A stretch of DNA of 32,411 bases from a virus: positions 1 to 32,411 of IMG/VR virus record IMGVR_UViG_3300030110_000183, one strand, 5' to 3'. Each line of letters starts with the position of its first letter. Position 1 is the stretch's first letter. The notes beneath the pieces are model-generated. The model did not search any database and was not told the DNA's origin. It worked only from the letters and a program-made list of their open reading frames with translations. Positions 3,954 through 24,595 of the stretch are shown one piece after another. The position numbers and the translations under genes were made by a program.

Positions 3954-6900
3954 TTACCCCTCTCTACCAGCAATACTGCGACCAAGATCGTTTGTAAAGT
4001 CTCTTAGAAACCATAACCTAGCAAAAGGTAAATTGCTAATAAAATCTTTTGCACCATCATAGTCGCCTTGTGTAAACTTATAAGCACTTTTCCCTAAATC
4101 ATATCCAATAGAAGGTCCAGAACCTAACGGAGCAAGGACAGCATCTACAGGATTGTATTCCTGTGGAAACTTAGGGCTAATCATTCCCATTGTCAAATCA
4201 GGACCACCTAATGCTAATGACATTTGTATGCCAGTATAATACATATCGGAATACATGGCAGCCAAACCAGACATATCAAATGTTCGAGCAATCTTATCTT
4301 CTATTGACATTTCCTCAAGAACAAAAGGATTTGATCTGTATTTTAATTGCATCCCCATATAAGCTAATCCCATTGCAGCCGCTATACCAACAGCTCTATT
4401 TTGAACCTGACCTTGAGAATAAAGAGTCGTTATTTTATTCAGAGCAGCAAAAGAATAAGAATAAAATTGGAATGGTAATCCTATTAAAGCGTTCTCAATT
4501 CGAGCATAACCTTTAATTCTTCGATCTTCTCTCATACCCATAAGTCTTCCTACTCGCATAGGAATATAAAAAACACCATCTACATTAATTGGTTTGTCTG
4601 CTGGAGATCCCATTAGAACTGTATTTTTTACAGTAGCGTTAAGAGTTCTTCTAAATGTTCTTACTGTATTTTCATCTGTCCAAGACTTTGTATTTGCTAA
4701 ATAGAACCCATTGCTGTTTTCTATAAAACCATCTTTAACAAGTTTATCTATAGCTTTTGCATCTTTAATATCCATACCATATCTTGATAAATATTCTATT
4801 TCTCTTTTATTTGCTTTTCTTTGTGAAAGCTTTACAGAGTAATCTATGATTGTGTGGGAGTGAGCCATTGACGACATATGCTTCATTATTCTTGTCATTG
4901 GACCTAATAAATTTGCTTGGAAAAAAACATTTTTTGCTTTAGATACAAAAGAGTTGTTGAAGATATTATTCATTGAGTCTTCCATAACTCTTAGATGTAC
5001 ATCACCTTTTAATATTTCTAACATTTCACCAGCAAGTCTTGCCTCAGTTGCGTTCATTCTAACCTTTTCATCATTGAGAACTCTAAATACTTGCTTAAAT
5101 AGAGGCTTCAATTCATTAGTCATCATAATCGCAGCAGCATCAGGCAGAGTTGAAAATCCAGCACTACCAAGATAATTAAGAGTAGCAAGATCTTTAAGAA
5201 CTTGAGCAGATCTATTGCTCATAGCTTCTGGATTTTGCAAAACAACGCCAGCTACTCGATCATAGCTATGCAAAAAATCTCTACGAAGTTTATTTAGTGC
5301 GTTTTCATTCATTCCTTTTTTAGCTTCTCTTAACAGAATAGAATTAGAAACAATCTCAGGATCAGCATGACCAAATGTTTTTACAAATTCATGCTGTGCA
5401 GCCGTTCTATTTGTATAAGCCATCATTACTTGAACTGGATTTGTTACTATAAAATCGGCAACTTCACTATTTGGAATATCAATTTGCCTATGTTTAAAAT
5501 GCTTTGATTTACCATAGCCATAATAAATTGCATTATCAGCAAGAGGATCATCTTGACCATAAAGTATTTTGTTTATTGTTGCTGTTATTTTAGATTCAAT
5601 TTCTTTTTGAGAAAGAGTAACAAGCTCTCTTTTAAATGAACGACCTCCATTTGGAGTTGTTCTTTCTACAATATCATATGCTTGATTTTTGAAATGCTTT
5701 CTTAATATTTCTTTAAAGTCTTCTGTTCTTTCATTAATAGATTGCTTGTTCCAAAATCTAGGAAAAAATTTTTCTTTTGTAGTTGCAGTATCTCCATCAG
5801 CATTTTTTAGATTATTTCTAATCTGATTATTTTCATCATTAAGCCTAAGTAATTGTTCTTTTAAAATCTTTTTTTCTGCTGGTTTAATTGATTTGTTAGC
5901 ATCTATTTCATCAAAAACTTTATTAAAATCTTTTGGATTATCTAATCTTGAACTTAACTTTACATCAGAATCAAGATTATACGCTTTCCCAAGTTCATCA
6001 TATGCATTAGATATTTGCAAAGCTCTTCTGTTTAAATTGTTTGTATTAGCAATTAATCCTGAATCTTGTAATCTATCATCCCATTTCTTAAAAAACCCAT
6101 CCCAAGCAGTCATAGCTCTTCGTTCTAAATCATTCATATTATCAGGCTGCAATGTACTTTTCTTCCATGTTTCAGAAAGCCATTCATCATAGTCTCTTCT
6201 AAAGAATGTTCCATAATCAAAAGATGTTCCAAATGGTTTGCCTTTACCACTAGCCTCACCATAAATGCTCATCAACTCATCATGAACAGCAACCCACTCT
6301 CCTTCATATTCAGAAGCCTTTATATATACAGAGTGAGGACTTTTAACAGCATTTTGATTTCCTTCAAGAGCTAAACCATGATCTCCCATAAGCCTTATAA
6401 AATCAAATTTAGTTTCTTGAGATATGCCTTTGTTTTGTAATGTTCTTTTTAATGGAGTTGTTATGCCCTTATACAACCAACTTTTTGTAAATAAATTTTC
6501 TTTTAAATCGAAAGCATTTTTTGCACTGCCACTCTCTGTTTCCAATTTTCTAAGAGATACCTCTCCCTTTATATAGTTATTAAAATCTTGAACTACTTTA
6601 GTATCATCAACACCTAACTTTCCTAAATAAGCTTTTGATCTTTTTGGATCTAACAATGCTTGTAATTGAGAATCATTAAATCTAGTCATGTTTATTTTCA
6701 GACCATCCTCATCAAAAATTCTAAGATCTCTGTTGCCAATATTCAATCTTTGCTCTGGAGTTGTAGAAGCAATAGCATCATTCATTTCAGCAATTTCTTT
6801 TTGAGTATTAAAATAAGCATTAGCTCTCATAGTACTCGGCACAGCCATCAGACCACCAAGAGTAGAACCAATAACAAATGTTGATCCTAAGTTTATTACA

Positions 6901-14203: not shown

Positions 14204-14235
14204 GTGGTAAAGGGGAGTTTCCTCCCCTTCTCCTT
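14201..14235 (-). promoter_or_regulatory. Hairpin-bridged ribosome-binding site of tail tube A
   Basis: Read on the mRNA strand: AAGGAG (14235-14230), then AAGGGGAG-GAAA-CTCCCCTT (14229-14210), then TACCAC, then ATG (14203-14201). The 8-bp stem is perfect and capped by a GNRA (GAAA) tetraloop. Unfolded, the Shine-Dalgarno is 26 bases from the ATG; folded, it is 6 bases away, the usual distance. No other Shine-Dalgarno fits unless the hairpin opens, exposing GGGGAGG at about 17 bases. No U-run follows, so it does not look like a terminator. Confidence 0.7.
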
Positions 14236-22655: not shown

Positions 22656-23393
22656 ATGAGTAATGTAAATAAAACAAGTAAAAGATATTTCGATCAAGAC
22701 ATTGTAGATAGTGCAGATGCGTTATCTCAGATGCGTAAGTCAAAGCAGTATAAGGCTTTAGAGAAGGCTTCGGCTGGAAATGAGCATATGCTTTTTGATA
22801 TAGCATTTCAGAACATTCTTGGTAATGGTGAAGTATTCAATCCATATGAACTAAGATCTAACATTGATGCAGAGCAGTTACAGTATCAAAGAATGGTCAA
22901 TGGTGAATGGATTGCAGATGACACTCAAGTTCCAGTAGGTCAAATGCTTACCAAGATGCTAACTGAAGACATTCTATTTGCTCACAACAGAACAGATAAG
23001 AATGGGAAGTTAGTTGACTCTATCGCAAAAGGTGAAAGAGTTTATTTGGGTCAACGGAACAAGGCTATCTCAAAGAAAAGAGATAACATTCAAGGTAAGG
23101 CTACTCATAGTGACTTGAGCATTGAGCATGATCTGAAAAGAGCTAATGCGAACAAAGAAGCTACAGAGAAGGTCAAGAACTTTCATCTATATCTTGAGAC
23201 TCTTTACTTCGAGATGACTGGTGAGATATATGAGACTCCGTATCAGAAAGCTAATGATACCAGAGTTGTAGCTAGTCCAGAGTCTACTGCAATGCAAGAA
23301 GCAGAAGCAGAGATCTTGAAGTTGGAACAAGGCTTAGGTCATGCGCCAACTGAAAAGACTGAAGAAGTTCTTGATATCAACACTGTCAAGTAA
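22656..23393 (+). CDS. First early protein, 245 aa, unknown function
   Basis: Begins MSNVNKTSKRYFDQDIVDSA, preceded by a run of AAATAAATAAATAAGGAG. Charged and helical, without membrane segments. It contains LFDIAFQNILGNGEVFNPYEL, a basic middle (RNKAISKKRDNIQGKATHSD) and an acidic C-terminus (QEAEAEILKLEQGLG). I do not recognise the family. As the first gene behind the structured leader it is expected to be expressed early; a host-takeover or replication role is possible but not shown by the sequence. Confidence 0.8.
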   Translation: MSNVNKTSKRYFDQDIVDSADALSQMRKSKQYKALEKASAGNEHMLFDIAFQNILGNGEVFNPYELRSNIDAEQLQYQRMVNGEWIADDTQVPVGQMLTKMLTEDILFAHNRTDKNGKLVDSIAKGERVYLGQRNKAISKKRDNIQGKATHSDLSIEHDLKRANANKEATEKVKNFHLYLETLYFEMTGEIYETPYQKANDTRVVASPESTAMQEAEAEILKLEQGLGHAPTEKTEEVLDINTVK

Positions 23394-23404
23394 CAATCGT
23401 AACC

Positions 23405-23431
23405 GAGGGTCAGAGCTTCATGCTCTGGCTC
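23405..23431 (+). terminator. Hairpin after the first early gene (possible weak terminator)
   Basis: CAGAGC-TTCAT-GCTCTG (23411-23427) is a perfect 6-bp stem, extended by GAG/CTC on the outside. It starts 12 bases after the stop codon. The downstream CACTTTCA is only weakly U-rich, so it may slow or process the transcript more than end it. Confidence 0.4.
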
Positions 23432-23452
23432 TCACTTTCACAGGATAACATC

Positions 23453-23530
23453 ATGAAACATCTTACACAGGAAGACTATGCAAACGCAGTGATATTAGTA
23501 TTAATATTGATACTACTGGCAATGGCATAA
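23453..23530 (+). CDS. Predicted 25-aa single-span membrane peptide
   Basis: Reads MKHLTQEDYANAVILVLILI, then LLAMA. The ATG is preceded by AGGATAAC. Residues 12-25 are wholly hydrophobic after a short polar N-terminus, so it would sit in the inner membrane. Such a composition is unlikely in random AT-rich DNA with a well-placed ribosome-binding site, but the gene is tiny. It could affect host membrane physiology or superinfection; no family is recognised. Confidence 0.45.
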   Translation: MKHLTQEDYANAVILVLILILLAMA

Positions 23531-23771
23531 AGAAGGAGCTAGTCCGACAGATTCGATCTCTAGGATTAGCAACCGCCAGCCTGAGGCGAGAGTGTTGCGT
23601 GAGCAATATCAAATACACTCACAATCCAGTTCATTTTTTCAACAATGAGAATCAACTTCTGATAACACATCCTTCCCAGCTCGAGTAAAGATTTCCCTTC
23701 GGCTGCTTCGCAGATCTTGACTCTTGGTAAGGCCGTGTTGATCAGGTTGTTTAAATAAAAAGGAGAAAGCT
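23531..23771 (+). other. Gene-free 241-bp early spacer with small stem-loops
   Basis: No credible gene on either strand. It contains TTGC-GTGA-GCAA (a GNRA-type loop, near 23594) and, near 23690-23720, AAGAT...ATCTT enclosing CTGC-TTC-GCAG. The minus-strand frame at 23639-23845 lacks a good start and runs against the early strand. The spacer ends in TTTAAATAAAAAGGAGAAAGC before the next gene. It may be a processed leader or a second, smaller structured RNA; nothing firmer can be said. Confidence 0.5.
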
Positions 23772-24035
23772 ATGTTAAAATTTGTAGAAGATATAAATAA
23801 TTTAAGTGTAAGTACTGTGTTAAATGAATATGATGATGCATACATAGAAGATTATCATTACTTTAAACTGAGAAGAAACAATGACATTCAAATATGGAGT
23901 CTTGATGATGCGCATTGGAAGTATGAATTAAATAACGTAGGTAATGAGATGCATCCAAAGGCTAGCTTTAAATCTTTGATGCAAGCATTGAGACATGGTT
24001 TAATATGGAATCATATAGATGAAACACCTAAGTAG
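23772..24035 (+). CDS. Hypothetical early protein, 87 aa
   Basis: Begins MLKFVEDINNLSVSTVLNEY, with the shared AGGAGAAAGC ribosome-binding block. Acidic, aromatic-rich (DDAYIEDYHYFKLRR, IQIWSLDDAHWKYEL). No domain recognised, no membrane segment. Flanked on both sides by structured non-coding DNA, so it may be a single-gene transcript. The function is unknown. Confidence 0.75.
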   Translation: MLKFVEDINNLSVSTVLNEYDDAYIEDYHYFKLRRNNDIQIWSLDDAHWKYELNNVGNEMHPKASFKSLMQALRHGLIWNHIDETPK

Positions 24036-24130
24036 GGAGAGGGTTTCGATACATAACGACCCCTTGAGGGCAAGTAACGATTAATCCCCTACATGTGAGT
24101 GTCTTATTACTCCTTGTGTAAGGCACTCAC
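24032..24130 (+). other. Structured intergenic element with a 12-bp hairpin
   Basis: GTAGGG (24032-24037, overlapping the stop codon) pairs with CCCTAC (24087-24092). Immediately after, GTGAGTGTCTTA (24095-24106) pairs with TAAGGCACTCAC (24119-24130) over 12 positions with one G-U and a 12-base loop. TAACGA occurs twice inside the first domain. There is no U-run after the long hairpin, so it is not a classical terminator. It lies just upstream of a strong promoter and may isolate the two transcripts or act as an RNA element. Confidence 0.6.
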
Positions 24131-24146
24131 CATTGTATGTAACCAG

Positions 24147-24175
24147 TTGATTTTATTATTTAAATTTAATATAAT
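24147..24175 (+). promoter_or_regulatory. Sigma70-type promoter TTGATT-N17-TATAAT
   Basis: A -35 box TTGATT (24147-24152), an ideal 17-base spacer and a perfect -10 TATAAT (24170-24175) lie in AT-rich DNA. Transcription would start near 24182, at the AGGAGAAAGC block, leaving about 12 bases before the ATG at 24194. The early operon from 24194 is therefore probably read by host RNA polymerase, which fits the lack of a phage polymerase. Confidence 0.75.
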
Positions 24176-24193: not shown

Positions 24194-24595
24194 ATGACTG
24201 ATGAAGAATTTAGTTATTCAAAAGAAATCTTACGACAAATAAATATGGCAGACCCCAGTGCTATGAGATGTTGGGGTGTAACAGTAGGTATAAACTGCTT
24301 TGCTTTACCAGAGTCTAAAGAACGTAGAGCTGGAATCAAGATGGAGACCAATGGGTTTGTTCATCAAGGCAGAGTTGATGTTGATCTAACATGGGGTGAT
24401 GACTACACTATAAAGTTCTATGACAAGAGAGGTGAAGTCAGCAGAACAATAGAGAGAGTCTATGCTCCAGAGTTATGTCGAGTATTAGACATAGCAATAG
24501 AGAGTGGGAACAGAACACCAGTTAAAGATCTTGAAATGGTACTGTCTCAGACCGGTAATGTTTTACATGCAGATTTAAAAGGAGAAGAAGAATGA
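24194..24595 (+). CDS. Hypothetical early protein, 133 aa
   Basis: Begins MTDEEFSYSKEILRQINMAD. The middle has alternating strands (VDVDLTWGDDYTIKFYDKRG) and a helical acidic C-terminus. It is the first gene behind the TTGATT/TATAAT promoter, and its stop overlaps the next start (ATGA), so it leads an operon. I do not recognise the family; no catalytic motif is evident. Confidence 0.78.
   Translation: MTDEEFSYSKEILRQINMADPSAMRCWGVTVGINCFALPESKERRAGIKMETNGFVHQGRVDVDLTWGDDYTIKFYDKRGEVSRTIERVYAPELCRVLDIAIESGNRTPVKDLEMVLSQTGNVLHADLKGEEE

Follow-up and report, generated by a model that had tools for sequence, protein, structure and literature searches.

The element flagged between two early genes of an uncultured marine phage appears to be an ordinary-looking mRNA boundary hairpin followed by a promoter, and the interest of the locus lies in the structured leader RNA that neighbours it. 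The significant part of the element is a single RNA hairpin, H2, and we estimate a probability of about 50% that it is the 3′-end (segmenting) hairpin of a message comprising the leader RNA and an 87-aa gene. The leader is a new structured RNA, previously unnamed. The window, which is the whole stretch of DNA analysed here, corresponds to a virus record in IMG/VR and is 32,411 bases long. The terminase that it encodes most resembles that of Pelagibacter phage EXVC031P Hodr (64% identity), a match that would suggest a Pelagibacter-type host. Early genes occupy the + strand from position 22656, while late genes are mostly on the − strand. The features of the early locus are as follows:

22656..23393, + strand: 245-aa gene, the first early gene
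23405..23433, + strand: hairpin H1, after the 245-aa gene and of the same style as H2
23592..23597, + strand: motif D (GTGTTG), ~90 nt ahead of the leader core and common to relatives
23655..23750, + strand: structured leader RNA (E), ~96 nt, a long irregular hairpin with a conserved bulge
23772..24035, + strand: 87-aa gene, early gene and upstream neighbour of the flagged element
24032..24092, + strand: first domain, with GTAGGG/CCCTAC as closing stem, within chance expectation
24095..24130, + strand: RNA hairpin H2, 12–13 continuous bp, z −6.3
24147..24175, + strand: sigma70-type promoter of the 133-aa gene, TTGATT-17-TATAAT, conserved in relatives
24194..24595, + strand: 133-aa gene, early gene and downstream neighbour of the flagged element

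Family searches gave no usable match for the 87-aa gene and no family for the 133-aa gene. The AlphaFold model of the 87-aa protein was weak (mean pLDDT 64; best PDB match, E 0.54), and no fold is claimed. Annotated phages yielded no match to the element region, the 245-aa gene, or the 133-aa gene, matches at chance level only to the leader, and a single weak match (E 0.6) to a relative of the 87-aa gene.

Structure of the flagged element

The initial annotation had described a two-domain structured element, in which a 6-bp stem beginning on the stop codon closes a 49-nt domain with a TAACGA repeat and is followed two bases later by a hairpin, with no U-run after it and a near-ideal sigma70 promoter downstream. 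All of these pieces are present, the absence of a U-run was confirmed, and the promoter (TTGATT-17-TATAAT) matches the consensus at 10 of 12 positions. Of the two domains, H2 stood out from chance and the first domain did not.

In the first domain, GTAGGG (24032–24037) pairs with CCCTAC (24087–24092) around 49 nt, the stop codon TAG lies at 24033–24035, and the two TAACGA copies begin at 24054 and 24075. Its folding is unremarkable against shuffled sequences (z −0.33 for 24032–24091; z −1.26 for 24032–24092 in a second test, with 23 of 200 shuffles as good), and a 6-pair GC-rich stem with this span arises in 8.2% of 1000 shuffles. Because the first domain is within chance, the z of −2.73 for the whole 121-nt stretch comes mainly from H2. 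In the only other contig that carries the element (IMGVR_UViG_3300029448_000187), the first domain is 25 nt shorter and lacks both the TAACGA repeat and the inner CCCCTTGAGGG hairpin; its outer stem is identical in the two contigs, and the first domain therefore offers no covariation. Given its chance-level fold and its shortening in that contig, we rejected it as a functional unit, and it is most likely incidental.

By contrast, no shuffle out of 300 folded as well as H2 (z −6.3). Folded over 24093–24132, the hairpin has a predicted energy of −19.4 kcal/mol as + strand RNA vs −12.6 kcal/mol as − strand RNA, and it lies 16 nt upstream of the sigma70 promoter. Only two hairpins in the 32.4-kb window combine 11 or more pairs with an energy of −18 kcal/mol or lower, namely H2 and H1 (23405–23433), while shuffled windows contain a mean of 0.03 such hairpins each (60 shuffles). 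Both are more stable as + strand RNA because their wobble pairs form only in the + transcript; the scan accepts G-U but not A-C pairs and is thus itself tilted toward a + strand bias. Elsewhere in the window, an 8-bp GC-rich hairpin with similar stability on both strands is located between two late genes (14210–14229).

Gene-end hairpins in relatives

Searching with the 133-aa protein recovered 18 loci. Contig IMGVR_UViG_3300029448_000187 carries the element at both of its ends, directly after an 87-aa homologue at one end and ~145 nt past the stop, behind unrelated DNA, at the other (L004), so that the placement of the stem on the stop codon is not conserved. The two ends (L027 and L004) are differing versions of one junction, which look like strain variants joined at an assembly break. 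Exact 16–17-mer matches to the element beyond this contig were located in unrelated DNA and were set aside. Two loci whose downstream genes are 91–94% identical (L008 and L007) lack the element. A lack of conservation among phages that keep the flanking genes had been named at the outset as evidence against the 100-base element, and conservation is indeed largely absent: relatives with both flanking genes have either another single hairpin (L010, L012, L013, L034, L035, L041, and L047) or no dedicated hairpin (L016, L021, L031, L032, and L039).

The most constant part of the region is the promoter before the 133-aa gene (TTGA, 17 nt, and a TATAAT-like −10), which precedes proteins that are 72–95% identical. 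The promoter comparison covered 19 unique sequences, 18 of which could be assessed, as one (L058) is cut by the contig end. Of these 18 variants, 12 carry an intergenic hairpin whose end lies 10–15 nt upstream of the promoter block. The 12 hairpins fall into three unrelated sequence types, comprising the window type (2), a CGTGTC type (7), and a TGTGTATG type (3); a base-paired stem is thus kept at the place of H2 while its sequence changes, as judged from these three types. The + strand form is the more stable in nine of the 12, through G-U pairs, and the other three are perfect palindromes without strand preference. The scripted promoter pattern missed six loci with a −10 of TATACT (L009, L010, L011, L012, L017, and L022), all of which display the CGTGTC hairpin. 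In one of them (L009, 1338–1411), a tRNA-Trp (CCA) gene is found directly before the hairpin and the same promoter. In the remaining six variants (L021, L031, L032, L039, L042, and L044), a coding sequence ends at that spot and there is no dedicated hairpin, the stems reported for them by script lying within the gene, and H2 is therefore not essential.

H1 provides a second example of a gene-end hairpin. After the 245-aa gene, a hairpin of 11–13 pairs starts 11–13 nt past the stop in 10 of 10 loci, and in all of them a ribosome-binding motif begins 7–13 nt past it; a stem of at least 11 pairs occurs in 31 of 4000 random 60-nt pieces of the window. The window copy has an energy of −22.1 as + strand RNA vs −13.3 as − strand RNA. 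Across the aligned loci, 98% of cells are paired, with 22 two-sided changes vs 6.8 in shuffles (0/500 shuffles as high), and pairing falls to 34–48% in slid registers. The tails lack a U-run in eight of the 10 loci, and those of L016 and L021 (TCTTTTC) are somewhat U-rich. Full termination at H1 is unlikely because the following gene starts at once and would be silenced, and a segmenting or stabilising role is likelier. By analogy, we read H2 in the same way. The arms of H2 in the window (GAGTGTC...GGCACTCAC) resemble the H1 arms of one relative (L018), and a common origin of the two is possible.

A leader RNA tied to the 87-aa gene family

On the 5′ side of the 87-aa gene, DNA identity among relatives is 76–90% at about 23657–23782, whereas the other intergenic DNA of the same loci has diverged. 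A leader pattern derived from the first 14 sequences was found in 27 viral contigs besides the window. Alignment A4 holds 20 sequences (16 distinct), comprising the window and 19 of the 27 contigs, and leaves out eight that are mostly near-duplicates or partial loci. In this alignment, 95.9–96.2% of cells are paired and 9–11 pairs have two-sided changes; the covariation score was reached by none of 500 shuffles, and slid registers are only 33–51% paired. The invariance of the leader core is in part a product of the exact search pattern, but seven of the covarying pairs are located in the outer helix, outside the core. Counts of 23 G-U cells vs one A-C cell favour the + strand, while the plain folding energy of the window copy (−28.2 for + and −29.6 for −) displays no + strand preference. 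The covariance model scores the window copy at 89.7 bits, and the terminal stem fits two registers, one favoured by the window and the other by L004.

When 12 whole records were searched for the leader, nine contained one site each and three, including Hodr, contained none; five weak opposite-strand echoes of leader sites are uncounted in these figures. With alignment A5, a whole-family search recovered the nearest contig only, because confirmation relies on the window protein. No Rfam family matched the leader of the window or its relatives at or above the gathering threshold. The leader core was also sought in 84,980 GTDB genomes, where a single match in an unrelated Verrucomicrobia sequence was judged to be chance.

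The 87-aa family comprises 49 entries (the window and 48 loci, with many duplicates). In every entry with an upstream stretch (46/46), the leader core lies 84–89 nt before the ATG, although many of these loci were found via the leader itself; the other three entries start inside the gene. A fairer test is provided by loci that were found via the 133-aa gene and include the 87-aa gene with its upstream side, and the leader is present in 13 of 13. Loci L008/L055 and L059 have neither the 87-aa gene nor the leader. Since the leader is tied to one gene family, these observations suggest that it is bound by the 87-aa protein or by a host factor.

The noncoding DNA upstream of the leader is also structured in many relatives, where a hairpin A (12–16 bp) and a hairpin B precede the leader, and motif D lies 90–105 nt upstream of the leader core. 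All 11 counted stem pairs of hairpin B covary, with 117 of 121 cells paired (0/500 shuffles). Its stem of 11–20 bp changes freely with full compensation (for example L034 2567–2612, L018 4590–4636, and L015 1017–1062) around a conserved, C-rich loop of 24–25 nt (CCCANNGCCANNCCC...TGCC). Hairpin B could be maintained as DNA, because it contains no G-U pairs. Hairpin A is located upstream of hairpin B with 15–16 bp in L034, L012, L041, and L038, and several loci have a loop around CTGATAGACG; its arms differ between L034 and L041 with pairing kept. Neither hairpin was found in the window, and an Rfam search of the upstream block in relatives gave no match. A pseudoknot between the loop of hairpin B and motif D, inspected by eye, was inconsistent across loci and was dropped. 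Only two contigs (L004 8269–8321 and L008 about 4815–4853) have a similar hairpin with another conserved 19-nt loop (ACCTACCCAGCCGACCCTC) and unrelated stems. In several relatives, as in the window, the noncoding block follows a very short gene that encodes a membrane-like peptide (window 23453–23530, L004 8116–8217, and L018 4425–4544).

Role of H2 and comparison with known systems

We propose that the short message made up of the leader RNA and the 87-aa gene ends, on the + strand mRNA, in the H2 stem-loop, which would divide it from the next unit; that unit starts at a separate sigma70 promoter, 16 nt farther on. The stem may block 3′-to-5′ exonucleases, possibly following an RNase cut, as a protection or processing step, and would cause leaky termination at most. 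H2 may be an RNA-processing site, one of the roles suggested in the initial annotation. A serious but less favoured possibility is that H2 ends the upstream early transcript as an intrinsic terminator, either leaky or assisted by a factor, and insulates the next promoter. Its location where the 87-aa gene ends, directly before the promoter, its stable, GC-rich stem of 12–13 bp, and the few T residues in its tails (CATTGTATG and ACATTTTAAC) are consistent with this, and a terminator function specific to H2 fits almost as well, as a promoter follows H2, unlike H1. However, the tail CATTGTATG is no U-tract (U-tail score 2.25); H2 tails score 1.95–2.25, where an all-T tail reaches 7.15 and a mixed control 1.7, a terminator scan of the window did not list H2, and hairpins of the same style occur inside operons. 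We therefore agree with the initial annotation that H2 does not readily fit a terminator.

Two other proposals for the element fared worse. As a DNA operator, H2 would be an inverted repeat 10–15 nt before the −35 block that binds a regulator of the 133-aa promoter. The spacing to the promoter block is nearly fixed in 12 of 18 variants, and some relatives have perfect palindromes. Nonetheless, the arm sequences are wholly different among lineages that conserve the promoter, wobble pairs favour the + RNA in nine of 12 hairpins, and six of 18 variants have no hairpin, all of which makes an operator improbable. The suggestion that both domains form a free-standing small RNA draws on two stems side by side and the fold of the 121-nt stretch (z −2.73). 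It is very unlikely, given that no + strand promoter-like site, searched with the sigma70 consensus only, lies between 23910 and the element at 24032, that the first domain is within chance and not conserved, that the L004 element lies ~145 nt past the gene stop on unrelated upstream DNA, and that Rfam holds no match to the element at or above the gathering threshold.

If H2 is a boundary hairpin of the message, the element would illustrate a way for a compact marine phage to keep its early messages apart without relying on classical terminators. Supported by covariation, lacking an Rfam entry, and strictly linked to one gene family, the leader RNA offers an opportunity to test whether early genes of uncultured ocean phages are controlled at the RNA level. 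More tentatively, H2 may bound, on the 3′ side, a previously unnamed early locus of such phages that is rich in RNA structures, with a new cis-acting leader family always paired with an ~87-aa gene family and probably autoregulatory or host-factor-binding, and an upstream noncoding block whose hairpins, present in many relatives, vary freely in their stems around a conserved C-rich loop; together with the gene-end hairpins, these could form one post-transcriptional control system for the first genes, a possibility we hold with less than even confidence.

The early RNase III sites of phage T7 are intercistronic hairpins that process or stabilise mRNA. The hairpins described here resemble them as stable stems between early genes, with unrelated sequences serving the same position, but are short (11–13 bp), single, and known from sequence. 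H2 shares with intrinsic (Rho-independent) terminators a GC-rich hairpin that follows a gene, here immediately ahead of a promoter, but it lacks their U-tract. The RNA structures manA, wcaG, and PhotoRC-II, as outlined in one report, come mostly from marine metagenomes and cyanophages (PMC2864571), and the leader differs from these marine phage RNAs in having no Rfam match. By analogy, the leader is also comparable to HK022 putRNA, another structured RNA from the early transcript of a phage, described as ~70 nt with two stem-loops downstream of early promoters (PMC9378689). Unlike putRNA, whose two stem-loops bind RNA polymerase, the leader is one long, continuous irregular hairpin tied to one small gene.
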